Position numbers and translations under genes: made by a program. From the IMG/VR virus record IMGVR_UViG_3300037117_000006, positions 1 to 20,746 of that record: a DNA stretch of 20,746 nt, one strand, 5' to 3'. The DNA is from a virus. Under the pieces are notes generated by a model. It was not told the origin of the DNA and searched no databases. It saw only the letters and a program-made list of their open reading frames with translations. Of this stretch, positions 4,922 to 20,746 are shown in pieces. How positions within the stretch are numbered: the stretch's first letter is position 1; every line of letters starts with the position of its first letter.

Positions 4922-5521
4922 ATGTTGACCGATCCGGCATGGGATGGTTGGAACAAATACTCAATCGACAGCATTGACGATCTGCGTTCACTGCTGCGTT
5001 CGGTACGGGCACTCGAATCGCTGGCCCAGGAAGGTGATTCAGTATCCGCAACAATCCTGCTCGATATACGGAAGGCAATGCGCTACGAAGCATTTGAGAG
5101 CGTGCGCGTCCTAACGGAAGAGCAGTTCAGAGTGATCCAGCTCTATCTCATCGAAGGTCGGACTACCCGAGATGTTGAGAACGTCATTAAGAAAGACCGC
5201 CGTATGATTTTCTACTACATCAAATCCGGTCTACGCCGTATGCTGTGCTATCTCCACAATGAAGAGTTCGGATCGTGGTATTGGCAGCCGTGGCAAGTAG
5301 ACTTCGTTGCGCGCAATCAACATCTTCCACGAGAAGAGCTGGCTGCGCGAGTAGGAAAGAACGAGAATGCGGTTCGACATGTCCTTCAGCGGTTGCAGGG
5401 CACCACAATCAATCGAGGCGCAAGCAGACGCGATCTTGGAAGCGGATCGGAAGCAGCGACGCGATTGGCGGCAGGATCAGTACCCATGTCTTACGCGCGG
5501 ACAGCTAGAGCGACGGGGTGA
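4922..5521 (+). CDS. Regulator with two helix-turn-helix segments (sigma region 4-like)
   Basis: Up to 199 residues from ATG 4922, preceded by AAGAAGGTG. Residues 64-111 (LTEEQFRVIQLYLIEGRTT...) resemble the sigma70 region 4 or LuxR-type HTH: an L-T-x-x-Q-x-x-V-I entry, a short turn, then a recognition helix (DRRMIFYYIKSGLRRML). A second HTH-like segment lies at 123-158 (WQVDFVARNQHLPREELAARVGKNENAVRHVLQRL). It lies between the recombination and packaging genes, so control of late transcription is plausible. A small terminase-like DNA binder is the alternative. After residue 160 the sequence becomes Arg/Ala/Gly/Ser-rich and looks like a poorly selected frame, while the +1 frame looks more protein-like there (see the next entry). 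The true C-terminus is therefore uncertain. Confidence 0.7.
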   Translation: MLTDPAWDGWNKYSIDSIDDLRSLLRSVRALESLAQEGDSVSATILLDIRKAMRYEAFESVRVLTEEQFRVIQLYLIEGRTTRDVENVIKKDRRMIFYYIKSGLRRMLCYLHNEEFGSWYWQPWQVDFVARNQHLPREELAARVGKNENAVRHVLQRLQGTTINRGASRRDLGSGSEAATRLAAGSVPMSYARTARATG

Positions 5522-5681: not shown

Positions 5682-6296
5682 ATGACCGATCCTAATAGAC
5701 TGCTCACTGCTTCTAAGATGATGAACGATGTTCAGCAGCGGCTATTTACGCTCTATGTTGGTATTGGGTCAAGTCGTACCATTTCAAAGCTTCACGAGCT
5801 TTGCCATGTTCGAGGATTTAACGTTACAAAACGCATGCTGGATCGTTGGAGTGCGAAGTGGCATTGGTCCGAGCTTGCAAAACTGACACAACAAGAAATC
5901 GCAAATAACGTTGCAAGAGAAGTACAGCCTCAGCTTCGGGAACTCATTGACCTTGATCTAAAAGCGTGTATAAAAATGAAGGAGCGATTTCATAAGCGGC
6001 TTGAGATTGATCCGTTCTCCGAGGACTTCGATGCGCTGCCGGAGGCGAAGAAAGAGCTTGCGATCATACCTGATCTTGCCGACTACGAGCGCGTTGTTCG
6101 ACTTGAGAAGCTGTTGCTCGGCGATCCTGAAGAACTAGAGCGCAAGGGCGAAGTCTCGCGGCTCGGTAAAGTGCTGGGTGACAACGACGGGAATGTCATT
6201 GCGACATTGCGTGAGCGGACGATTCAGGTTTACGGGCTGCCCGATAAAGACGTTATCAAAAAGGTGCATGAGCAGCTCGAAGGTGGTAAGGAGTGA
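5682..6296 (+). CDS. Putative terminase small subunit (TerS)
   Basis: A 204-residue protein directly upstream of the large terminase, whose GTG start overlaps its stop (GTGA). Residues about 30-62 form an HTH-like segment (SSRTISKLHELC, then VTKRMLDRWSAKWHWSE). The RW-x-x-KW-x-W pattern is common in phage small terminase and DUF1804-like proteins, which bind the packaging site on the genome and recruit the large subunit. The rest is helical and charged, fitting an oligomerisation region. No strong ribosome binding site lies just before ATG 5682 (only a weak GGGTTGAAG). A strong one sits about 50 bases upstream in a hairpin. The call rests on position and the HTH, not on a diagnostic motif. 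Confidence 0.7.
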   Translation: MTDPNRLLTASKMMNDVQQRLFTLYVGIGSSRTISKLHELCHVRGFNVTKRMLDRWSAKWHWSELAKLTQQEIANNVAREVQPQLRELIDLDLKACIKMKERFHKRLEIDPFSEDFDALPEAKKELAIIPDLADYERVVRLEKLLLGDPEELERKGEVSRLGKVLGDNDGNVIATLRERTIQVYGLPDKDVIKKVHEQLEGGKE

Positions 6297-8974
6297 CTGC
6301 CTTCTTACAAGCTGTTGCGGACAACACGACCTTTGGCTATGCCACGGAGTACATGATAGTCGATGGCCGTCCGTTTTCATTCGATGGGCACAGCTATCTC
6401 ATCGACTTGTATCAAGACAACCACCCCTACCAAGTCATCGAAAAGGCGGCCCAGATGGGTGCCTCGGTACTTGGTATGGCAAAGGCGTTCTTCGTCTGCG
6501 ACAAGCTCGGAAAGAACGTCATTTACTTCTTCCCGACTGATGAAGACGTGCGCGAGTTCTCCAAAGGCCGTGTTGCGCCGATCATTCGCGATTCGCCGCA
6601 CCTCGAAGCTGTTGTTGGTGACGCCGATGCGGTTGGACTGAGAAACGTTGGCCGAGGCTTCCTGTACTTCCGAGGCATGCGCTCGAACATTCGTATGAAA
6701 TGTTTTTGCGAAGATACGGAAGTGCTTACTCGCTCCGGCTGGAAGCATTTTGATTCAGTAACGAGAGAGGACTACATTGCTACGCGCTCACCGAGCGGCA
6801 TATTTATGTGGCAGCGCCCTACCGACGTTTGGCAGTACGACTACAACGGCGAAATGTTGCATTTCAAAGCTGCCGGAACTGATGTGCTTGTTACACCGAA
6901 TCATCGCATGCTGTTTCAATCTTGCCCAGGGAAGCAGGAATGGTTCGAGACAGCAGAGCAGCGCAGGAACGCGAAGGCTAGTCAAACGCACCAGCAGTTT
7001 GTCCGTAGTGATGTTACTTGGCGCGGCGAGGTTCCAAAGTTTCTTGTCAAGGACGGTCGGGATGCACATGGCGATAAGTGGTTCATAACGATTCCAGGTA
7101 ACAAGCGCAACAATGCGTGGGAATCGGCGGGAAGATTGCCTTCAAGGCGTATAAATCTTGCCGATTGGGTTGCCTTTCTAGGGCTGTACTTAGCAGAAGG
7201 TTCGACTCAAGGAGTCATGGGCGGCAAGCGTGGCGGTCGAGTTAGCATTTCTCAAGTTGAGAAATCTAAGCATTTCCAGCGGATACAAAAGCTGCTGCCA
7301 AAGATTGCCGCCACATGGAGCTACGATAACGGGAGCACATTTCGCATTGGTGATATGGAACTTGCGAAGGTGTTGTTTCCATTAGGCAACAAGTACAACA
7401 AGTTCGTGCCAGAGTGGGTGAAGAATCTGCCGCCCAGGTATTTGAAGATTTTGTGGGAGTGGGCTGTGGTCGGCGACGGCTCTGTTCAGCGTAGTCAAGT
7501 GCGGTACGGGACCATGAGCAAGAAGTTGGCCGACGATATGCAGGAAGTGTTAATGAAGCTCGGTGTTCTTGCGTATGTGAAACCGCAGAAGCAAAGTACA
7601 GTCCCGACGATTCGCGGGCGTCAAGTGAAGAGTACGGTGCCCTGCTACGTTGTTCTTGCACGAACTACCGGCAAAACAACCGTTGCACCAAGGCCGCAGG
7701 CTGTAAAGTATCGCGGCACAGTTGGATGCGTGTCAGTACCGAACGGCGTTATTTTGACGCGGCGTAACGGGCTTACTATGTGGAGCGGCAACTCGATTGC
7801 GGCTGACCTCCTCATCTTTGACGAGCTTGATGAAGTAACGAACAATCAGTTGGAGCTTGCAGATCAGCGCCTCAACCACTCATCGTTGAAGTGGCGTTAC
7901 CTCCTTTCGACGCCGACGTTCGACAACTACGGCATCGACCGCGAGTTTCGCAAGAGCGACCAACGGTATTGGAACCTCATCTGCAAGAACTGCCTGACGC
8001 CGAACATTACTGAGAAGCTGTTTCCTGATTGCGTAAAACGCATTAGCGAAGTGAAGTGCATTCTTGTTTGCCGCAAGTGCGACGCGGAGCTGGACGCACA
8101 GTACGGTCTTTGGATAGCAGAAAAACAGACTGAGCGCATTCGTGGGTATCATCTCTGCTCGCTCTACGGCATCTATACCGACCTTTCGGAGTTGATGTAT
8201 AAGTTCGAGGAAGGCCGGCACCGTGAAGAGTTCATGCGCTCGAAGTTGGGCATGCCGTGGGTCTCGACAGATCAGCGGTTGACGCCGGAGCTAGTGGAGC
8301 GGTGTTGCGAGCGGTACGAGTGTGGACCGATGGGCATGACGCACACCTACATGGGCGTTGACCAACGCGGGCGCGAGCTGCATGTCGTCATTCGCGGCAA
8401 TGATGATCGTACACGCCGTCCGAAAGACGTGCTTATCAAGCGTGTTCGCAAGTTCGAGGACCTCGACGTGCTTATGTCCGAGTTCGATGTAGACTTGGCG
8501 GTCGTTGACGGTACGCCGAATCAGCATTCAGCGCGGGACTTCTGCATGCGCTTTCCAGGCCGTGCCTACATGGCCTACTATAACGAGAATCAGCGTGGAT
8601 CGTACAAGTGGCAAGAGTCCAAGACTGATGACGAGGACTATCAGGTTACGGTCAACCGCACCGAATCGCTCGACGCCATGTATGAGGAAGTGCAGCGCCG
8701 CGAGATTATGCTCCCTAACCCCGACAACGCGGAGATTCACTCGTTTGTCGAACAGGTATGCAATCTTGCGCGCATCAACGAAGTCGATGACGACGGCGGC
8801 GTGAAGCATGCCGTTTACAAACGACTTGGCGAGGACCACTACGCGCACGCTTCAAACTACGCACTGATCGCACACTCGCGATTCGGTGGGCCGGTTCAAA
8901 GCATCATGGTACAATCGCCGATCATCTCAACAAATGTCGTAAGCCGCCGCTTCGAGGAAGGGTCTCGATACTAA
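6293..8974 (+). CDS. terL: Terminase large subunit (TerL), interrupted by an intein
   Basis: An 893-residue precursor with a GTG start. Removing the intein (residues 137-500) leaves 529 residues, a normal TerL length. The ATPase part has EKAAQMGASVL (about 50-60), which aligns with the deviant Walker A of lambda gpA (Lys at the front of the motif, no GK[ST]). Walker B LLIFDELDE (D510, E511) follows the intein, then the coupling motif LLSTPTFD. A zinc-ribbon-like set of four cysteines (C564, C567, C593, C596) separates the ATPase and nuclease parts, as in GpA-type terminases. The RNase H-like nuclease has GVDQ (D690), VVDGTP (D739) and GEDHYAHASNYAL (D848). The enzyme pumps phage DNA into the prohead through the portal and cuts it at start and end. 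The portal gene follows one base later. The call is secure. Confidence 0.95.
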   Translation: MTAFLQAVADNTTFGYATEYMIVDGRPFSFDGHSYLIDLYQDNHPYQVIEKAAQMGASVLGMAKAFFVCDKLGKNVIYFFPTDEDVREFSKGRVAPIIRDSPHLEAVVGDADAVGLRNVGRGFLYFRGMRSNIRMKCFCEDTEVLTRSGWKHFDSVTREDYIATRSPSGIFMWQRPTDVWQYDYNGEMLHFKAAGTDVLVTPNHRMLFQSCPGKQEWFETAEQRRNAKASQTHQQFVRSDVTWRGEVPKFLVKDGRDAHGDKWFITIPGNKRNNAWESAGRLPSRRINLADWVAFLGLYLAEGSTQGVMGGKRGGRVSISQVEKSKHFQRIQKLLPKIAATWSYDNGSTFRIGDMELAKVLFPLGNKYNKFVPEWVKNLPPRYLKILWEWAVVGDGSVQRSQVRYGTMSKKLADDMQEVLMKLGVLAYVKPQKQSTVPTIRGRQVKSTVPCYVVLARTTGKTTVAPRPQAVKYRGTVGCVSVPNGVILTRRNGLTMWSGNSIAADLLIFDELDEVTNNQLELADQRLNHSSLKWRYLLSTPTFDNYGIDREFRKSDQRYWNLICKNCLTPNITEKLFPDCVKRISEVKCILVCRKCDAELDAQYGLWIAEKQTERIRGYHLCSLYGIYTDLSELMYKFEEGRHREEFMRSKLGMPWVSTDQRLTPELVERCCERYECGPMGMTHTYMGVDQRGRELHVVIRGNDDRTRRPKDVLIKRVRKFEDLDVLMSEFDVDLAVVDGTPNQHSARDFCMRFPGRAYMAYYNENQRGSYKWQESKTDDEDYQVTVNRTESLDAMYEEVQRREIMLPNPDNAEIHSFVEQVCNLARINEVDDDGGVKHAVYKRLGEDHYAHASNYALIAHSRFGGPVQSIMVQSPIISTNVVSRRFEEGSRY
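6701..7792 (+). mobile_element. Intein with LAGLIDADG homing endonuclease, in terL
   Basis: A 364-residue in-frame insertion. It begins with Cys1 in CFCEDTEVLTRSGWK, the classic intein block A. Block B is VLVTPNHRM. The two endonuclease motifs are FLGLYLAEGS (about residues 294-303 of the precursor) and WAVVGDGS (about 390-397). It ends with VPNGVILTRRNGLTMWSGN and then Ser as extein +1. The penultimate residue is Gly where His is usual; some known inteins tolerate this. Joining the flanks gives MRSNIRMK-SIAADLLIFDELDE, a continuous approach to Walker B, which supports the borders. The endonuclease would cut intein-free terL alleles, allowing the element to spread between phages. Confidence 0.93.
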
Positions 8975-8975
8975 A

Positions 8976-11900
8976 ATGATATTCTCATCGGATGGCAAGA
9001 GTGCGCTGAAGTCGGTTGACGGTGAAGAGCGCGTTCAAGTCATCAGTCCCCAAGAAGCACAGCGGATTGATTGGGCAAAAACTACGCAAGTCATCGACGG
9101 CGCAAGCTATGAGCCGGACAAAGAGTTCGAGGACGCCGCAGTAGCTCGACCAATGAATCCAATGGACTTCACAGCAGAGACTTTTAACGGTAAGCCGTTC
9201 GAGGTCGAGGCTGAACTGTTCGAGGTTTCGCGCGACGGTACGGAGTATCGGTTGCAGCGTTACCCGAATAAGGCTGCGCTTGCTTCGCGCCTCAAGGAAG
9301 CCGAAACGCAGTGGCACACTTGGACACCTCCTGAGCGTCATTTACGGGAAGCCGTGCGGCCCAGAGAGCGTGCGATTGATACCGCAGTTGATGAGGCGGC
9401 ACGAGAGCAGTTACGAGAAGCGTTTGATGGTGGTGGGGGCTATCCTCCGGCCAATGACAGTCAAGCCTGGGCATCGAGTCGCTATGGTGATGGCTTCGAC
9501 GCACAAGCGGAGTACGTTCCGCTCATGGCGGGGCCGTGGTCGAAGCAGCTTTATCAGCGGCAGTTTTTGGAGATGCACTGCCTGACCGGCGATACGAAGA
9601 TTTTGATGCTTGACGGCACCTCAGTTCGTATTGATGACCTTGCAAAACGTGGTGGTGAGTTCTGGGTGTATTCATGCGATGGCACGCAGGTTGTGCCTGG
9701 ACGTGGCTATGACGCGCGCAAAACGGGTGATCTTCCGGTCTACGCCATTGCTTTGGATAATGGTGAAGTTGTCAAGGCAACGGGGAATCACGGTTTCATG
9801 TTACGCGATGGTTCATATAGACGAGTAGATGAGCTGAAACCGGGGGATAGATTGATGCCCCTGTACCGAAAATATAAGGGGCGTCGAACTAACCCTAAAA
9901 CGAAGCAGACTTACGAAAGTGTTTATCATCCTGGCATGGATTTGTGGGAGTTTACGCATCATCTTGTGGCTCGTAGGCATGTTGAAAACTTTTTTGAGTA
10001 TCGCGACGGCTACCACATTGACCATATCAATCAAGATGCTCACGATAACCGACCTGAAAATCTGCAACTGCTGACTTCTGGCGATCACATGCGGAAGACT
10101 GTTGCATGGAATCTTCAGCATTCGCCTGAATCGTTTACGGGAGCAAAAGGCAAGCCTGTCTCTGAAGCGCGCCGTAGAAAGATTAGCGAATCTAACCGTA
10201 GACGGCATGCAGCGTACACAGAAGAAGAGCGTACCTCCCTAAGTCAGAAACATTCCGAAGCTCAAAGACGCCGTTATGACAATGGCTATGCCATGTCAAA
10301 AGAGCATGTTGAATCTATTAGGCAGGCGAACTTAGGGCGCAAGCGTGACATAGTGAGTCGTACTCTTTCTAGCGAGAACGCTAAGAGTGTTTGGGACAGG
10401 TATACCCCTGAAGAGCGGCAAGCGCGTGTGAATAAAGTGAAAGCCGGTTGGACGCCGGAGAAGCGCGCAGCCCAGGCTATTCTTAATCATCGTGTGGTAT
10501 CGGTAACGAAACTTGGTGTCGAGCCGGTGTACGACATCTCTGTTCACGGATACAGCAACTTTGCTCTTGAAGCCGGAGTGTTCGTTCACAACTCGAAAGC
10601 GTTTGAGGCGTACAACCACAATCCGGTTGCACGTCGAGTCGTCAACATTACGCGCGACTTCATTTTCGGGCATGGGCTCGATCACGTTTCAACCAGCTCT
10701 GATGTTGATGAAGTGTGGACGGAGTTTGTAGAACGCACTGACTTCTACAACCTGCTCGCCGATACCATCTACACTGACCTCTCGTGGGCCGGTGAGATGA
10801 TGTTTGAATGGTATGATAACGATCCATTCAAAGGTGCCACAGATTTCCGAATGATCGACCCGTCAACGGTCTGGGAAATCGTGACGGACCCCGAAGACAT
10901 TTTCAACGTCTACTACTACTATCAGTCATACGAGACTGCCATGCAGCAGTACGTCACAGGCAACATTCCTTCTACGAAGTACATCATCCGGCAAATCCCT
11001 GCGAACCGCGTAACGCATATCAAGATCAACTCGTCCATGTACGAGAAGCGTGGGCGCAGTGATCTGTTCCCGAATCTCGGCTGGGTGAAGCGGTTGAAGG
11101 ATTTGATGAATGCTCGCGTCATCAAGGGCCAGCTCGAAGCGGCGTTCGTTTGGGACGTAGAAGTGCTTTCGGGTGACGCGAACGTTGCGGCGGTTGGGTT
11201 GAAACTGCCTGATCCATACAAGGCTGGCTCGACGTTCGTTCACAACAAGAACATTAAGTTGACGCCGGTATCGTCATCGCTCAAGGGTAACGAGCAAGAG
11301 CCTGATGTCGAGAATCTCATTACACTCATCGCGCTCGGTGGCAACATCCCCAAGGAGTTCTTGGGGCAGACTTCGCGCGGCGGTCGTGGCGGACAGCTCT
11401 TGTCGAGCGAGCCGGGTACAAAGTGGTTCGAGCGCCGTCAAGTGCTCATCGACCGGATCGTTCATACCGTAGCAAACCGCGTGATCGGCAACGCCATTAA
11501 GGCGAATATTCTGTCGCTGGACGACATCTTGAAGGATGCTCGTTCAGTGCGCCGTCTTGCGCCAAGTGCTTCAAACCAACCAAAGCGCGGGGACATTGAG
11601 AACAAGATCGAGGACACGCGCGAGGAGCAGCAAGATCAACGCGACGAAGCGCAGCAGACTCAGGCTGATGCACAACAGCAGAACGCTCAACAACAGCAGG
11701 ACGCCAAAGATCAGGCCGACAAGTCGAAGAACGGCAAGACTGAAGTTCACGTTTCAGTCAACGGAAAGGCTAAGGTGAAGGAAGCGATCCGTGGTGTTGT
11801 ACGCGAGTCTGAGGCCGACGATAGCAACGGCGGCCCGTTGACGAAGCAGCAGAAGGCGCGCATCGAGACCATCAAGAAGACGCAGAACTACTCCAAGGAG

Positions 11901-12578
11901 TTCTTGCAGTTCATGTTACCGGCTATCGCACAAGAGGATCGCTCCTCGAAGCTCAAAGACGTTGCACTTGCCGAGTCGATGGAATGGATTTCAAAGCGAA
12001 CGTCGGCAAACATGGGCGCTCACGAGCTGAACATTACGACCTACGACTTCGATGAAGAGCGCGTGCAGATCAACGCCGAGTCCGACGAAGGCATGTCGAT
12101 TGCCCATGTGTATTCGCAGGACGGTAAAAAAACTCCCGAGACCGTGCTTGCACAGGATGTTCAAGAGCGTGAGCAGGCAGAGCAGCCTCCTGCCGAAAGC
12201 TTTACGAACGTGCCTGTGCCTCCGACTACTGAAGGAATGAAAGTTGTTCCAACACAGGGTCAGAATCCAAGCGACCAACCCAACAGCGGCACGAAGAAGG
12301 TGAACCAGCACGCAGCTCTTGATACCAACGATACGAATCCAACCAGCACGAATAAAATGAGTCCAGAAAATCGAAACCCAATGACGGATAAAGGAAAGGC
12401 CGGAATACTCGCTCACGAACGTAGGACTAAAGCGTCGTTGCGCCGAGCCGTCAAAAGTGAAATCCTTAGAGAAGCCCTCGGGCCTCTTATGAAGGAAGAC
12501 AGTGCTCTTGCGAAGTTGATCTTGGAACGTAAAGCTGATGCTGTCAACTCGGAAGAGCTAGATGAAGCCCTGTCCTAA
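8976..12578 (+). CDS. Phage portal protein, interrupted by an intein, with long C-terminal extension
   Basis: A 1200-residue precursor, 862 residues after removal of the intein (residues 202-539). It starts one base after terL ends; GAGGAAGGG lies about 12 bases upstream. The portal identity rests on position after TerL and on the block after the intein: YNHNPVARRVVNITRDFIFGHG, then DLSWAGEMMFEWY, PSTVWEIVTDPED and NIPKEFLGQTSRGG, the order seen in SPP1-like and related portals. The portal forms the dodecameric DNA channel at one head vertex. After the core comes a coiled, Gln/Asp/Glu-rich stretch (nt 11620-11720) and about 250 further residues with low-complexity linkers (PPAESFTNVPVPPTT), longer than most portals. 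These could be a fused scaffold-like or accessory region. The first 200 residues are also poorly conserved in look. The overall call is strong; the tail function is unknown. Confidence 0.88.
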   Translation: MIFSSDGKSALKSVDGEERVQVISPQEAQRIDWAKTTQVIDGASYEPDKEFEDAAVARPMNPMDFTAETFNGKPFEVEAELFEVSRDGTEYRLQRYPNKAALASRLKEAETQWHTWTPPERHLREAVRPRERAIDTAVDEAAREQLREAFDGGGGYPPANDSQAWASSRYGDGFDAQAEYVPLMAGPWSKQLYQRQFLEMHCLTGDTKILMLDGTSVRIDDLAKRGGEFWVYSCDGTQVVPGRGYDARKTGDLPVYAIALDNGEVVKATGNHGFMLRDGSYRRVDELKPGDRLMPLYRKYKGRRTNPKTKQTYESVYHPGMDLWEFTHHLVARRHVENFFEYRDGYHIDHINQDAHDNRPENLQLLTSGDHMRKTVAWNLQHSPESFTGAKGKPVSEARRRKISESNRRRHAAYTEEERTSLSQKHSEAQRRRYDNGYAMSKEHVESIRQANLGRKRDIVSRTLSSENAKSVWDRYTPEERQARVNKVKAGWTPEKRAAQAILNHRVVSVTKLGVEPVYDISVHGYSNFALEAGVFVHNSKAFEAYNHNPVARRVVNITRDFIFGHGLDHVSTSSDVDEVWTEFVERTDFYNLLADTIYTDLSWAGEMMFEWYDNDPFKGATDFRMIDPSTVWEIVTDPEDIFNVYYYYQSYETAMQQYVTGNIPSTKYIIRQIPANRVTHIKINSSMYEKRGRSDLFPNLGWVKRLKDLMNARVIKGQLEAAFVWDVEVLSGDANVAAVGLKLPDPYKAGSTFVHNKNIKLTPVSSSLKGNEQEPDVENLITLIALGGNIPKEFLGQTSRGGRGGQLLSSEPGTKWFERRQVLIDRIVHTVANRVIGNAIKANILSLDDILKDARSVRRLAPSASNQPKRGDIENKIEDTREEQQDQRDEAQQTQADAQQQNAQQQQDAKDQADKSKNGKTEVHVSVNGKAKVKEAIRGVVRESEADDSNGGPLTKQQKARIETIKKTQNYSKEFLQFMLPAIAQEDRSSKLKDVALAESMEWISKRTSANMGAHELNITTYDFDEERVQINAESDEGMSIAHVYSQDGKKTPETVLAQDVQEREQAEQPPAESFTNVPVPPTTEGMKVVPTQGQNPSDQPNSGTKKVNQHAALDTNDTNPTSTNKMSPENRNPMTDKGKAGILAHERRTKASLRRAVKSEILREALGPLMKEDSALAKLILERKADAVNSEELDEALS
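9579..10592 (+). mobile_element. Intein with HNH homing endonuclease and NUMOD-like repeats, in the portal gene
   Basis: A 338-residue in-frame insertion starting at Cys (CLTGDTKILMLDG, block A), with block B VVKATGNHGFM, and ending in YDISVHGYSNFALEAGVFVHN followed by Ser at extein +1. All splicing residues look intact. In place of LAGLIDADG motifs the middle holds an HNH motif (YHIDHINQ, then DNRPENLQLL and a GDH; precursor residues 346-371). Several short basic repeats follow (SEARRRKISESNRRR, SKEHVESIRQANLGRKR), which resemble NUMOD3 DNA-binding modules of intron endonucleases. The joined exteins read LYQRQFLEMH-SKAFEAYNHN. This makes a different endonuclease lineage from the other two inteins in the window. 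Confidence 0.93.
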
Positions 12579-12633
12579 GTGTGGGCAACAGGACGCTGAT
12601 GACGAACTAGCTCGTCAGCGCATTGCTTGTTGA
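12562..12633 (+). CDS. 23-residue peptide with CPxCG motif
   Basis: A very short frame between the portal and MuF genes. ATG 12562 lies in the portal end (17-base overlap), with GGAAGAG six bases upstream, and the stop at 12631-12633 overlaps the TTG start of the next gene. The peptide begins MKPCPKCGQQ and ends in IAC, so it has half a zinc ribbon (C-P-x-C-G) plus a third Cys. It also neatly fills what would otherwise be a 50-base gap in a genome with almost none. It may be a real microprotein, or mainly a device that carries ribosomes from the portal gene to the non-ATG start of the next gene. Evidence is spacing, ribosome binding site and the Cys motif only. Confidence 0.5.
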   Translation: MKPCPKCGQQDADDELARQRIAC

Positions 12634-14102
12634 TTAAAGTTGTTGACCGCCAACTCTTTGAAGCCAAAGCCAAGCGCCGAAAGGTGCGGGCTGCGATAGG
12701 CTCAATCCTTCGTAATGCTCGCAAGCCGCTGTTCAACCGAGTCGAGATTGAGATTCAGCGATATCAAGCAGCACTCGTCAACCTCCTGAATCAATCACAG
12801 CGCGATCTTGAACAATCGGTAGGGGCGTCAGGACATCTTGCGATTACACTTAACGATCTCGTTGAAGAGTTCCAGAAACTCGGAATGGTGTATCTGCAAA
12901 ACGGTGCGGACATCGGGTACGAGCGCGCTCTCACAGACTTGAAGGATCGCGGCTGGATTGCAAGTTATCAGGAGCCGGTCCACGCGCCGAAGGAAGCCGT
13001 CGAGGCTGTCTTGACTGCGAACTACAAGTACCTGCGTTTGAGCTTGCTACCTGACTTACAGAAGAAACTGCAATGGGCGACGCCAAGCAACGTCGGCCCA
13101 GCGATTGCAGCAATGCGTGCTCGCGTGCAGATGTACGGTCACTATGTCTGGGTCGCGAGTCAGGAAAGTTATCGCGCATGCATCAAGGACTTTTTCACGC
13201 ACACGACGCTGCATGAGAGTGCTGTACCACGCAAGATCAAGATTCGCGAAGGTGGGCCCGGCTCCGGGTTTCACGGGCATGCCGGTCGTCCTGGTATTCG
13301 CGGCGGATCGGCAGCGGGAGGCGGTAAGGCGCAAGCGATTTTCTTAATGGGTGGCAGTGCAAGTGGGAAAGGACGCCTTGCCCAACGGTACGCGAAAGAA
13401 TACGGCATTAAGAATGTCATCAACTGCGACCATATCAAGGAAGCCTTCCCACTCTTCACCGGCAAGCCGATCAACGGTAAGTACGGAACGTCGGGTCCAA
13501 AGACGTATCAGGAGCTGATTGAGAACTACACTCCTGAAGAAGTTGCAAACGTCAACGAATACATCCGCGATCATACCCCCTTCTCCGACGTGCATGAGTT
13601 TGCACAGCGGCAGTTCGGCGATCCCGACAAGTTCTATGAAGACAACAATCCGGCAAGTGGTGGGCTGACGCATGAAGTATCGTCGTACATCGCAAAGCAA
13701 CAGCTTGCGGGCGCACTTGATTCGGGCAAGTCATTCGTTTATGATTCGACCGGCAACGGTTCGTACTATCCGATATGGGCAGGCAAAGCTGCCGACGCCG
13801 GGATGGCTGTCACTATCGCTCAGGCATACGTTCCTCGCGAAGTTGCACACATGAACGACGATGCTCGTGGAGCGAATGCTGATCCGGGCGATCTGACGGG
13901 TCGGACGGTGGGCTCGGCGGTCCTAATGAGCACCCATGATAAGGTAGACGCGATGGCTCCGGTTATGGCTGCCTGGGCTACAGGGGCGCGTGCAGCGGGC
14001 CAGGACGTGACCTTCACGCGCGATGATACCTACACCCCGGAGATGCTCGCCAGAGCCCGAGAACTTGGCTATACCTACTCTTCGCGACCTACCGGAAACT
14101 AA
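12630..14102 (+). CDS. MuF-like head protein fused to a zeta-toxin-like kinase domain
   Basis: A 490-residue protein from TTG 12630, overlapping the preceding stop (TTGA); TTG 12627 is an alternative. Residues 1-200 are helical and charged and lie directly after the portal, the usual place of the MuF/SPP1 gp7 minor head protein. Residues 208-227 form a Gly-rich linker (GPGSG...GRPG...GGS). From 235 on there is a P-loop kinase: IFLMGGSASGKGRLA (Walker A 241-248), NCDHIKEAFP (Asp as in zeta toxin), a THEVSS helix start, DSGKSFVYDSTGN, and a late GRTVGS. Zeta toxins phosphorylate UDP-N-acetylglucosamine and block wall synthesis; relatives phosphorylate other substrates. No epsilon-type antitoxin is visible. 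MuF proteins enter the capsid, so the kinase could be packaged and delivered with the DNA. The kinase family is clear; the MuF part rests more on position, and toxicity is unproven. Confidence 0.78.
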   Translation: MIKVVDRQLFEAKAKRRKVRAAIGSILRNARKPLFNRVEIEIQRYQAALVNLLNQSQRDLEQSVGASGHLAITLNDLVEEFQKLGMVYLQNGADIGYERALTDLKDRGWIASYQEPVHAPKEAVEAVLTANYKYLRLSLLPDLQKKLQWATPSNVGPAIAAMRARVQMYGHYVWVASQESYRACIKDFFTHTTLHESAVPRKIKIREGGPGSGFHGHAGRPGIRGGSAAGGGKAQAIFLMGGSASGKGRLAQRYAKEYGIKNVINCDHIKEAFPLFTGKPINGKYGTSGPKTYQELIENYTPEEVANVNEYIRDHTPFSDVHEFAQRQFGDPDKFYEDNNPASGGLTHEVSSYIAKQQLAGALDSGKSFVYDSTGNGSYYPIWAGKAADAGMAVTIAQAYVPREVAHMNDDARGANADPGDLTGRTVGSAVLMSTHDKVDAMAPVMAAWATGARAAGQDVTFTRDDTYTPEMLARARELGYTYSSRPTGN

Positions 14103-16775: not shown

Positions 16776-16895
16776 ATGATCGGTGAGGACGAAGAAGAAG
16801 AACGCGCAGGCGTAGCACAGGCGCAGGGCGGCAGCAAGAGCCGGTCGAATCGCTGGGATCATGATCTATCAGGACCCTACGACATGGCCTCGTGA
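16776..16895 (+). CDS. Possible 39-residue acidic/Arg-rich small protein
   Basis: ATG 16776 lies 5 bases after the previous stop, with GGGTAAAGGG upstream as a fair ribosome binding site. The product begins MIGEDEEEERAG and ends NRWDHDLSGPYDMAS, overlapping the start of the next gene by 35 bases in another frame. The stretch would otherwise be a 90-base non-coding gap. Support is limited to the start signal and spacing; the family is unknown. It may serve mainly to bring ribosomes to the next start, which has no good site of its own. Confidence 0.4.
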   Translation: MIGEDEEEERAGVAQAQGGSKSRSNRWDHDLSGPYDMAS

Positions 16896-17655
16896 CGAGA
16901 AGGCCCTAGCAGAAGGCAACCGCGCGATGGAGGCCGCAGCACCGGCTTACCAAAGAGGCGACGATGACGAACCCGACTATCTGTTCTCGGAGCTGGTAAA
17001 CGGCAAGTGGCAGCCCTGCAATCGCGACGAGCACGGCATGCCAATCACAACCCCGGCGAGCGAACACGCACGGGTACAAGAGGGCGGCGCAGGATCGGGA
17101 TACCACGGACACCCAGGTCGTCCTGGGCAGCGTGGAGGATCGGGAGCAAGCGACGAGATTTCAAAGGCAATCAGTGGCATTCGCAAACATGGTGGCGTTA
17201 CCATCGACATCCATGGAAACATGCCGCAACACGGCTTTACCGTAGGTGGGCTGGGCGAAGAGAAGATCGTGGATAGGCTGACTCGTGAAAACGTGCAAGA
17301 ATATCACGTCAATAACGCGACGGCACTCGCGCAACCGAATCGGTACTTCGGAGGTTGGATTGAAAAGGGTCAGTTCTACATGGACGTTTCCGAAGTGCTT
17401 GGATCGCGAGTCGATGCATTAGCAGCGTGTCACGAGCGATTACAGATTGCAGCGTTCAACCTAGACTCAGGGGAATCGGTGTATGCAATGAGTGACGAAA
17501 GCAGACCGGGTAAGGATAACCCGGCAACCGAGATTCGCGAATCGGAAGGCAAGAAGCCTGAGTTTCCGAAGCTGTTGCTATTCGGCAAAGACGTGAACTT
17601 CGATGACATCGTGAATAAGGTCAACGCTGAAATCGAGAAGTCGAAAGCGTCGTGA
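16861..17655 (+). CDS. Second protein with the GRPG linker, fused to an unknown C-terminal domain
   Basis: A 264-residue protein; ATG 16861 is the only start left, because an in-frame stop lies shortly upstream. The N-terminal 70 residues are polar and Pro/Asp/Glu-rich, with YLFSELVNGKWQPCN. Residues 75-94 repeat the linker of the MuF/kinase protein (EGGAGSG, HPGRPGQRGGSG). The following domain (about 110-215) contains IDIHGNMPQHGFTVGG, LAQPNRYFGGWIEKGQFYMDVSEVL and AACHERLQIAAFNLDSGE. This resembles a compact alpha/beta domain that I have seen as a C-terminal module in phage head and polyvalent proteins, but it has no function I can name. It is not like the zeta kinase. The shared linker suggests both are packaged or processed alike. 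It ends with a GTGA overlap to a micro-ORF. Confidence 0.75.
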   Translation: MIYQDPTTWPRDEKALAEGNRAMEAAAPAYQRGDDDEPDYLFSELVNGKWQPCNRDEHGMPITTPASEHARVQEGGAGSGYHGHPGRPGQRGGSGASDEISKAISGIRKHGGVTIDIHGNMPQHGFTVGGLGEEKIVDRLTRENVQEYHVNNATALAQPNRYFGGWIEKGQFYMDVSEVLGSRVDALAACHERLQIAAFNLDSGESVYAMSDESRPGKDNPATEIRESEGKKPEFPKLLLFGKDVNFDDIVNKVNAEIEKSKAS

Positions 17656-18990: not shown

Positions 18991-19304
18991 AGTCGTCTTG
19001 GACGCCGCAGAACCCGCCGTGGTTTCCAGAGAAGATCATGGACGAGGCCAAGACGTTGATGACGTTTCGCTTAAGCATGCTACATCCCGACGTGGCATCA
19101 GGTGAGTGGCCTGCGCGGTTGAGGAACGATACGAGCTTTCATCAAGACTTGATCGACATGGCTGTGGAGCTTCTAAAGCAGGCGAAGTATCCGGTCATTG
19201 CGCTCCGAACCATGCTCGTCGTCAATGCGAAGTGTGATCTAATATGCCAACAGATTGCAGCGGAAAAAGGTTATCCGTATTGGGGCGGTGCTCGTGGCCG
19301 TTGA
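18987..19304 (+). CDS. Hypothetical protein, 105 residues
   Basis: GTG 18987 overlaps the previous stop (GTGA). The protein starts MKSSWTPQNPPWFPEKIMDEA, continues with SMLHPDVASGEWPARLRND and a helix VELLKQAKYPVIALRTMLVV, and ends YPYWGGARGR. It appears soluble and helical with no known motif. The last 11 bases overlap the probable start of the next gene. The role is unknown; it may belong to either the accessory block or the structural genes that follow. Confidence 0.65.
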   Translation: MKSSWTPQNPPWFPEKIMDEAKTLMTFRLSMLHPDVASGEWPARLRNDTSFHQDLIDMAVELLKQAKYPVIALRTMLVVNAKCDLICQQIAAEKGYPYWGGARGR

Positions 19305-19761
19305 AGTCTATCTCCACAACGTTGACGTGGTGATCTCGAAGCTCGTCAAAGTGGGCCAAGGGTTCGGTCCGTATGTCAACAACGTGCTTGATGATGCAGT
19401 GAACGAAGACATCTGGCCGTTGTGGATGCGGAACATTTCAGGAATGGTATCGCTTAGAACACTGCGAGCAATGGGGCACCCATACAGCAAGAAGTTCCCC
19501 GGAGCAAGCGGCGACTACAAGGTCAACATTCAAAGCGGTGAGCTAATGACTGCCACGCATATCGAAAGCGGTGACGATGGAAGCGGCCATTACGTTCGGC
19601 TTACCAACTCCTCGCCGCAATACATCTGGCTGCGTTACGGTACGGTCAAGATGCGGCCCAGAGACCCTGGGGGTGAAGCATTCACCGAAGCTATGCCCAC
19701 CATACGCGCTCGCTTTGCACAGGCCGTGCAAGCTGGTATAATCGAACTGTTCGCAAGCTAG
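19294..19761 (+). CDS. Possible head-tail or tail completion protein (HK97 gp10-like)
   Basis: 155 residues from GTG 19294 (GGGGCGG upstream); GTG 19288 and ATG 19255 are alternatives further inside the previous gene. The N-terminus is helical (VYLHNVDVVISKLVKVGQGF). The C-terminal half has GHYVRLTNSSPQYIWLRYGTVKMRPRDPGGEAFTEAMPTIRARF, close in pattern to the Y-x-x-Y-(V/I)-E-x-GT-x-x-M-x-(A/P)-x-P-F of HK97 gp10-like proteins, which link the connector to the tail tube. Here the usual PF is DPGG, so the match is partial. If right, the gene marks the return of the morphogenesis module after the accessory block. Another minor tail protein is the main alternative. Confidence 0.45.
   Translation: MAVEVYLHNVDVVISKLVKVGQGFGPYVNNVLDDAVNEDIWPLWMRNISGMVSLRTLRAMGHPYSKKFPGASGDYKVNIQSGELMTATHIESGDDGSGHYVRLTNSSPQYIWLRYGTVKMRPRDPGGEAFTEAMPTIRARFAQAVQAGIIELFAS
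19715..19742 (+). promoter_or_regulatory. Extended -10 promoter before the Acb2/Tad1-like gene
   Basis: TATAAT (19737-19742) is a perfect -10 box preceded by TGG, giving an extended -10. TTGCAC lies 16 bases upstream (19715-19720), a weak -35. The predicted start near 19749 leaves a short leader with TAGGAGGA (19759-19766), five bases before ATG 19771. The promoter lies within the end of the upstream gene. Confidence 0.6.
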
Positions 19762-19770
19762 GAGGATTCA

Positions 19771-20010
19771 ATGCTGCACGGAAGTACATTTCAGTATCTC
19801 AAGCCATCTGACAATCAACGCGAAACTATGCAAAGAGCGCGGGATAGTATCGATACTTGTGCCAGAGAGTTGGACGAAATACTGCCGGAAGGGCCTGATA
19901 AGACTTACCTCATCCGCAAACTGCGTGAGGTTGGCATATGGGCAAACGTAACGATCACGCGCTTATCGGATGGAACACCAAGAGAAGGAGCGACAGTCGA
20001 TTATGGGTAA
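19771..20010 (+). CDS. Acb2/Tad1-like small protein (candidate anti-CBASS/anti-Thoeris sponge)
   Basis: A 79-residue protein with a strong ribosome binding site (TAGGAGGA). It begins with a short N-terminal segment (STFQYLKPSDNQRE), then two helices: a charged first helix (RARDSIDTCARELDEILPEGPD) and a second ending RKLREVGIWANVTITR (about 49-64). The F-x-Y-x-x-P-(S/T) entry, the P-x-G/S-x-(E/D)-(K/R) turn and the L-(R/E)-E-(V/A)-x-x-WAN-x-x-I segment are the pattern of the Acb2/Tad1 hairpin domain. Acb2 binds cyclic di- and trinucleotides and silences CBASS; the related Tad1 binds signalling molecules of Thoeris. It has its own promoter, which suits a gene needed early in infection. The family call comes from pattern memory, not a search. 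The C-terminal tail (LSDGTPREGATVDYG) is extra. Confidence 0.68.
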   Translation: MLHGSTFQYLKPSDNQRETMQRARDSIDTCARELDEILPEGPDKTYLIRKLREVGIWANVTITRLSDGTPREGATVDYG

Positions 20011-20188
20011 CAAATCCCAACCCAAGCGCGAAGTGAAGAAGCCGAAACAAGACAGCCTTCGCGGTACGAAACGCCAACCCAATCCCGTCGATGAAGTGGA
20101 AACGGTACGCGAGGCGGAAAAGAAAGCCGCCGACAAGGGGAATCCCTACCACGATCACAGTAAAGATACGAGTACGTTAAAGGATTAG
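20003..20188 (+). CDS. Small highly charged protein, function unknown
   Basis: 61 residues from ATG 20003; AGAAGGAG lies 12 bases upstream. A longer form from ATG 19970 is possible. The gene overlaps the end of the Acb2/Tad1-like gene. The product is very Lys/Arg/Gln/Glu/Asp-rich with almost no hydrophobic residues (for example KPKQDSLRGTKRQPNPVDEV), so it is probably disordered in isolation. It may bind nucleic acid or serve as a small head component. No motif is recognisable. Confidence 0.6.
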   Translation: MGNKSQPKREVKKPKQDSLRGTKRQPNPVDEVETVREAEKKAADKGNPYHDHSKDTSTLKD

Positions 20189-20197
20189 GGGACTGAG

Positions 20198-20365
20198 ATG
20201 CCTGCGAAAGTTTTTGCATACCCACGCTTCATTCCGTTCTACAAGCAGTTCGTAACCGGACACGTTGCAAAGCGTGCGCGTAAAGACTGCCGGTGTTCAC
20301 GGGCGCAAGCAAAGCAAGAAGTTCTACAAGGAGCATCGCGACATCGGTGTGGGCTAAATGAGTGA
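20198..20365 (+). CDS. Small basic protein, 55 residues, possibly frameshifted at its C-terminus
   Basis: ATG 20198 follows the previous stop by nine bases, with AGGGGACTGAG upstream. The product starts MPAKVFAYPRFIPFYKQFV and continues HVAKRARKD, very basic. After about residue 28 the frame turns Cys/Arg/Ser-rich (CRCSRAQAK), while the +1 frame reads VKTAGVHGRKQSKKFYKEHR and stops directly before the next ATG (TAAATG). Either the +1 continuation is the true C-terminus (one base lost or a real frameshift), or two small genes overlap. The function is unknown. Confidence 0.5.
   Translation: MPAKVFAYPRFIPFYKQFVTGHVAKRARKDCRCSRAQAKQEVLQGASRHRCGLNE
20274..20357 (+). CDS. Possible 27-residue basic ORF, or the true C-terminus of the 20198 gene
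   Basis: GTG 20274 opens a 27-codon frame (MRVKTAGVHGRKQSKKF...) within the 20198 gene in the +1 frame. It ends with TAA abutting the ATG of the next gene at 20358, the exact spacing expected of a real upstream gene. No clear ribosome binding site precedes GTG 20274, which favours the frameshift reading over an independent gene. Confidence 0.35.
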   Translation: MRVKTAGVHGRKQSKKFYKEHRDIGVG

Positions 20366-20746
20366 GCTGACGTTCGCGCAGCGGCTAGATACGTTAGCAA
20401 AGGCGGCAACGCAGTCACCTGAGATTCTCGCTCAGTTCGATACGTTGAGCGCCGAAATCAAAGCTGCCGAAGACGACGCGATGAAAGAGATTGTCGCGGT
20501 CGAATCCGTACTGCAACGTACTGCGACTACTCAGAAGAACGATGTTGCAGCGTGGATCGAAAGTCAGAACGCCGAGCTGTATGAACTGTGCATCAAAAAC
20601 CCAGCTATCTACGACCTCATCATGTCGGTGATCTACGGTGCGAAGTGTTGGACGCAGGATCATCATGTCGAGTACAATGCGTTCAAAGTAAAGGGCCATT
20701 GGGACGGCTCTCGACTCATCCTCAAGTTCCAAGAAGACCTCGGATT
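20358..20746 (+). CDS. Incomplete protein, function unknown (cut by window end)
   Basis: ATG 20358 follows TAA directly (TAAATG) and the frame stays open to the last base, giving 129 residues. The first half is helical with coiled-coil-like runs (MSELTFAQRLDTLAKAATQ, then LSAEIKAAEDDAMKEIVAVES). The second half has AWIESQNAELYELCIKN and IYGAKCWTQDHHVEYNAFKVKGHWDG, ending in a beta-like segment (RLILKFQEDL). There is no obvious signal peptide or enzyme motif. Codon use and spacing fit a real gene. The remainder lies outside the window, so no family can be given. Confidence 0.75.
   Translation, partial: MSELTFAQRLDTLAKAATQSPEILAQFDTLSAEIKAAEDDAMKEIVAVESVLQRTATTQKNDVAAWIESQNAELYELCIKNPAIYDLIMSVIYGAKCWTQDHHVEYNAFKVKGHWDGSRLILKFQEDLG

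Follow-up and report, generated by a model that had tools for sequence, protein, structure and literature searches.

Our analysis considered a 20,746-base stretch of viral DNA, the IMG/VR virus record IMGVR_UViG_3300037117_000006, referred to here as the window. The window is probably a fragment of a larger genome, and the phage records searched held no nucleotide-level relative of it. A DNA polymerase A fragment, RecA, the small and large terminase subunits (the latter, TerL) and the portal are carried on one strand. Signs of three inteins are seen: in the DNA polymerase A (LAGLIDADG; 3-1004), in the terminase large subunit (LAGLIDADG; 6293-8974) and in the portal (an intein splicing domain with HNH; 8976-12578). 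The gene at 12627 encodes a Zeta-toxin-like kinase domain, and a GSG(F/Y)HGH(A/P)GRPG(I/Q)RGGS linker is common to several proteins, both in the window (12627-14102 and 16861-17655) and in a related phage (L157 2-808 and 2319-6017), where one 1232-aa frame holds it several times.

The gene under study lies near the end of the window (Table 1). The 79-residue open reading frame that had been claimed for this locus is present, with a strong ribosome-binding site ahead of it: AGGAGG, separated from the ATG by 5 nt, shares bases with the TAG stop codon of the upstream gene (19759-19761). At its other end, the ATG of the downstream gene falls inside the 3' end of the acb2-like gene and overlaps its stop codon (ATGGGTAA, 20003-20010). 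Among close relatives, purifying selection acts on this gene family (median dN/dS ~0.17 over 23 pairs).

Table 1 Features of the acb2-like locus, in window positions.
Feature	Position	Strand	Basis
Upstream gene, possibly virion-related	19294..19761	+	GTG start at 19294 suggested by homologue
Promoter-like TTTGCA-17-TATAAT with TGn extended -10 (19734-19742)	19714..19742	+	sequence match
Shine-Dalgarno-like AGGAGG	19760..19765	+	read from sequence
acb2-like gene, Acb2/Tad1 hairpin-domain protein	19771..20010	+	PF24729, PHROG 1454, 71-member alignment A2, dN/dS
Tyr9 codon, equivalent of T4 Acb2 Y8 (cyclic dinucleotide binding)	19795..19797	+	alignment
Downstream gene	20003..20188	+	homologue directly follows upstream gene's homologue in L096/L157
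Further conserved-neighbourhood gene, cut by window end	20358..20744	+	27-31% identical homologue, same order, L096/L157

The original prediction spoke of a late operon. The one thing that speaks for this setting is the same-strand cluster with TerL and the portal, while the direct neighbours gave no convincing family match in Pfam, PHROG and NCBIfam profile searches. The upstream gene, without a match in the phage records, has a 41% identical homologue in one viral locus (L096; E=6e-32). Homologues of genes 12627, 16861, 17752, 19255, 20003 and 20358 make the phage represented by L096/L157 co-linear with the window; towards the downstream end the similarity is weak (E ~1e-4, in a small search), but the genes agree in order and position. 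In this phage, the homologues of both flanking genes are direct neighbours, and only 4 bases separate them. Its own acb2-like gene, 50% identical, lies ~4 kb further downstream, near a probable integrase (named by eye). Because the gene is found at one place and missing from the other, the comparison indicates a movable extra in this lineage, an accessory gene that sits as an insertion between two conserved ones. Querying the viral contigs with the flanking genes yielded no empty site directly; the one described here came from L096.

The neighbours of the relatives also vary. Terminase-like and replication-like genes (named by eye) are found next to them in viral contigs, and in named phages the neighbours include the portal and RNA ligase, ThyX, HicAB or tRNAs. 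Both the varied neighbourhoods and the lack of the gene at this site in L096/L157 agree with an accessory gene that has a role in host interaction. They should also be considered when weighing a very different possibility, namely that the product is a virion or assembly component, placed as it is between genes of a presumed structural cluster, on the same strand and tightly spaced with its neighbours, with TerL and the portal upstream. Since the co-linear relative lacks the gene here but carries one elsewhere, and since relatives sit in many unrelated contexts, we regard a virion role as very improbable. As separate observations, in eight viral contig loci (e.g., L058) a terminase-like large ORF (by eye) follows a short way downstream of the acb2-like gene, and in Gordonia phage FlyingTortilla a hairpin-family gene (L154 1171-1389) lies between the portal and RNA ligase genes; after these comes a gene with the annotation VIP2-like ADP-ribosyltransferase. 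A SMODS gene was not found in the one bacterial genome carrying a relative, although this says little.

For the homology of the 79-residue protein to the Acb2/Tad1 hairpin family, an HMM search had been named as the check. The Pfam model of this family, PF24729, was matched with E=1.4e-4 and 22.4 bits, a score that falls below the curated cut-off of 27 bits. PHROG 1454, annotated as of unknown function, was matched with E=3e-10. Relatives of the window protein are encoded by at least 147 stretches in viral contigs. All 18 family members of the first sampled set matched PF24729, and three full-length relatives that share roughly 54-63% identity with the window protein (L031, L110 and L091) scored 41.8, 38.5 and 32.3 bits, respectively, when examined singly. 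With the same model, the Acb2 proteins T4 Vs.4 and Pseudomonas p26 score 71 and 66 bits. Because of this chain of full-length relatives, the window protein belongs in the hairpin superfamily despite its own sub-threshold score. The claimed homology is thus borne out by profile, as well as by the fold and the residue pattern described below, and we consider it close to certain. Direct comparisons were less telling: No Acb2 came up when solved structures were searched by sequence, either with the protein or with its 18-member profile, and when profiles were compared, the T4 Acb2 group gave a weak match (probability 29%, 18 columns, with the second helix alone aligned). The NCBIfam and PADLOC collections held no match to the window protein. 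Two irregularities in the annotation of related genes were also seen. Hairpin-family genes in Paenibacillus phage records (H45, H46, H50 and H51) are labelled 'phosphomannomutase', an apparent misannotation, and the cyanophage S-2L record contains, between S2L_47 and S2L_48, an unannotated ORF (L155 1177-1392; MSITNDELHTRFTYHP...EEACFWANAGVARRT) with the hairpin pattern.

The AlphaFold model of the window protein as a monomer (pLDDT 87.5) contains helices at residues 5-8, 14-37 and 42-63, i.e., a short N-terminal helix and two long antiparallel helices in a stand-alone protein. A short helix followed by a long helical hairpin is the layout described for Acb2 (PMC10419184, PMC12043709), so that the predicted fold is that of Acb2. 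Of the 16 best structural matches from the viral library, nearly all were named as Acb2/Tad1 hairpin proteins, with probabilities of ~1.0. A Foldseek search of the PDB with the model gave nothing below E 0.001, T4 Vs.4 (7uq2) appearing ninth with a probability of 0.35. In VIA-align, 7uq2 was second in the realigned list (Z 6.4, 64 residues, rmsd 3.1), a score that unrelated helical fragments equalled and that does not decide the matter by itself; for this reason, the match supports but does not prove the relation to Acb2. An identity with Tad1 was also considered and was rejected, as the 79-aa model has no N-terminal beta-sheet domain. Of the "Acb2/Tad1-like" label in the original prediction, the architecture thus favors the Acb2 side, while the Tad1 side does not hold.

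By Acb2 we mean a homo-hexamer that binds cyclic di- and trinucleotides. Individual positions of T4 Acb2 can be traced through the 71 family sequences of the alignment, in which the conserved Tyr and Trp served as anchors for the correspondence. T4 Y8, for which the Y8A mutation disrupts cyclic dinucleotide binding and abolishes function in Panoptes assays (PMC12657218, PMC12657230), corresponds to Y9 and is kept in 68 of the 71 members. K23, K71 and W76 correspond to R24, R52 and W57, all invariant (71/71), and M75 corresponds to I56, this position being Met in the other 70 members. Two positions differ. F82, which stacks on the ligand in T4 Acb2 (PMC12657218), is replaced by Thr63 in 70/71 members; p26 Acb2 has Ala in this column, so the Phe is not universal in Acb2. 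T68, where the T68M mutation lowers binding in T4 Acb2 (PMC12657230), is replaced by Arg49 in 71/71, in a column that also varies among T4-like Acb2s and is not a defining residue. We therefore rejected the change from T68 to Arg49 as proof of a new specificity. Taken together, the two replacements suggest that ligand choice may differ from that of T4 Acb2; a related pocket is expected, although its ligand range is not readable from the sequence.

These differences bear on whether a hairpin-family protein might have a different job, binding another small ligand, a nucleic acid or a host protein, in a clade without sponge function. The replacement of F82 and T68 would suit such a role, as would the low direct similarity to tested Acb2, the annotation of hairpin-family members in phage records as hypothetical and the unknown function given for PHROG 1454. 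Yet the Tyr that was tested in Acb2 and the basic positions are kept almost without exception and the fold matches Acb2, and we consider a different job rather unlikely. To our knowledge, most members of PF24729 have never been tested, and the literature searched held no functional report for the large clade around the window protein.

The original prediction also described a TGnTATAAT promoter inside the previous gene. This sequence is indeed present within the 3' end of the upstream gene, as part of TTTGCA-17-TGGTATAAT with the -35 TTTGCA at 19714-19719, and is private to this phage. It agrees with the sigma-70 extended -10 consensus in 10/12 hexamer positions, a 17-nt spacer and TGG. TATAAT is unique in the window on both strands (3.2 expected), TGNTATAAT is likewise unique (0.3 expected), and no other window site combines 10/12 matches with TGn. 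The site is the best-scoring one in the window, with 0.19 expected per window by chance, and, given the protein, the codons that produce the -10 would be chosen with a probability of ~0.6%; both of these values were computed after the fact. Conservation of the promoter upstream of relatives was sought and none was found, the rate of promoter-like sites scoring >=8 being 17% upstream of other family members and 15% at random positions, with no clear enrichment. The mRNA following the site has no notable fold.

One can thus read the site as a chance match in coding sequence, with the gene expressed by read-through of the cluster, and we lean towards this reading, as the lack of enrichment points in this direction and as the phage may bring a sigma-like factor of its own. 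Against chance stand the site being the only TATAAT in 20.7 kb, its best score, its correct placement and orientation and, after the fact, the codon choice. Use as a promoter is, accordingly, a possibility that we hold tentatively, and the argument for early expression is a guess. A private promoter would make sense if the gene had only recently entered a late-expressed cluster. Elsewhere in the window, positions 4922-5521 present a weak sigma-factor-like match (PHROG 3512, E=2.7e-5), possibly a phage transcription factor.

Our preferred explanation, to which we assign a probability of roughly 0.6, is that the gene encodes an Acb2-type hairpin sponge and is an accessory gene between two conserved genes. 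The product would be a stand-alone hairpin protein, for which Acb2 of T4 and of Pseudomonas phage provides the analogy: like these, it would form a compact oligomer, and this oligomer would bind cyclic-nucleotide immune signals without degrading them. Such capture of the signal would keep the effectors of CBASS-type, and possibly other nucleotide-signal, systems switched off. We infer oligomerisation, ligand binding, the anti-defence effect and use of the promoter; the Acb2-like sponge function itself seems reasonably probable by this analogy, making the protein a good candidate blocker of nucleotide-signal immunity. More speculatively, and with little likelihood in our estimation, the large environmental phage clade, marked by invariant R24, R49, R52 and N59 and by a C-terminal DGxPR tail, could form a separate sponge subfamily with a pocket reshaped to capture a signal other than those of Acb2 and Tad1. 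If the protein is a sponge, Acb2-type counter-defence would be common in uncultured environmental phages and would move between genome positions as an accessory gene, and the invariant arginines would indicate a change, open to testing, in the immune signal captured. The Acb2-type sponge family is known; what is new here is a further member, in a large clade.

Among known systems, the closest is Acb2 (T4 Vs.4, PDB 7uq2; Pseudomonas phage p26, PDB 8h2j/8ixz), with which the window protein has in common the Pfam model, a small stand-alone chain and the short helix plus long helical hairpin. The likeness extends to Tyr8/Tyr9 and the basic K23/R24 for both T4 and p26 and, for T4, further to the basic K71/R52 and the Trp of the second helix. 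The window protein differs in its shorter inter-helix loop, in Arg49 for T68 and Thr63 for F82, in a C-terminal DGxPR motif that is absent from Acb2 and in its overall sequence, with 12% identity to T4 Vs.4 over the structural alignment. Tad1 (Thoeris anti-defence 1) resembles it in the helical hairpin domain named in PF24729 but not in the N-terminal beta-sheet domain, as only four residues precede the first helix of the window protein. The PHROG 1454 Acb2/Tad1 hairpin proteins, from phages of Mycobacterium, Gordonia, Paenibacillus, Lactococcus and Streptomyces, are ~30-40% identical to the window protein and share with it a pattern of the type F-x-Y-x-x-P...R...P-x-G...L-x-x-x-x-M-W-A-N; however, at the positions of R49 and R52 in the window clade these proteins often carry T and E, and they differ from this clade in hosts and neighbours. 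For the sponges Acb4 (SPO1) and Tad2, the mode of action proposed here, sequestering immune nucleotides, would be the same; reportedly, Acb4 is not a structural homologue of Acb2, Tad1 or Tad2 (PMC11722364).
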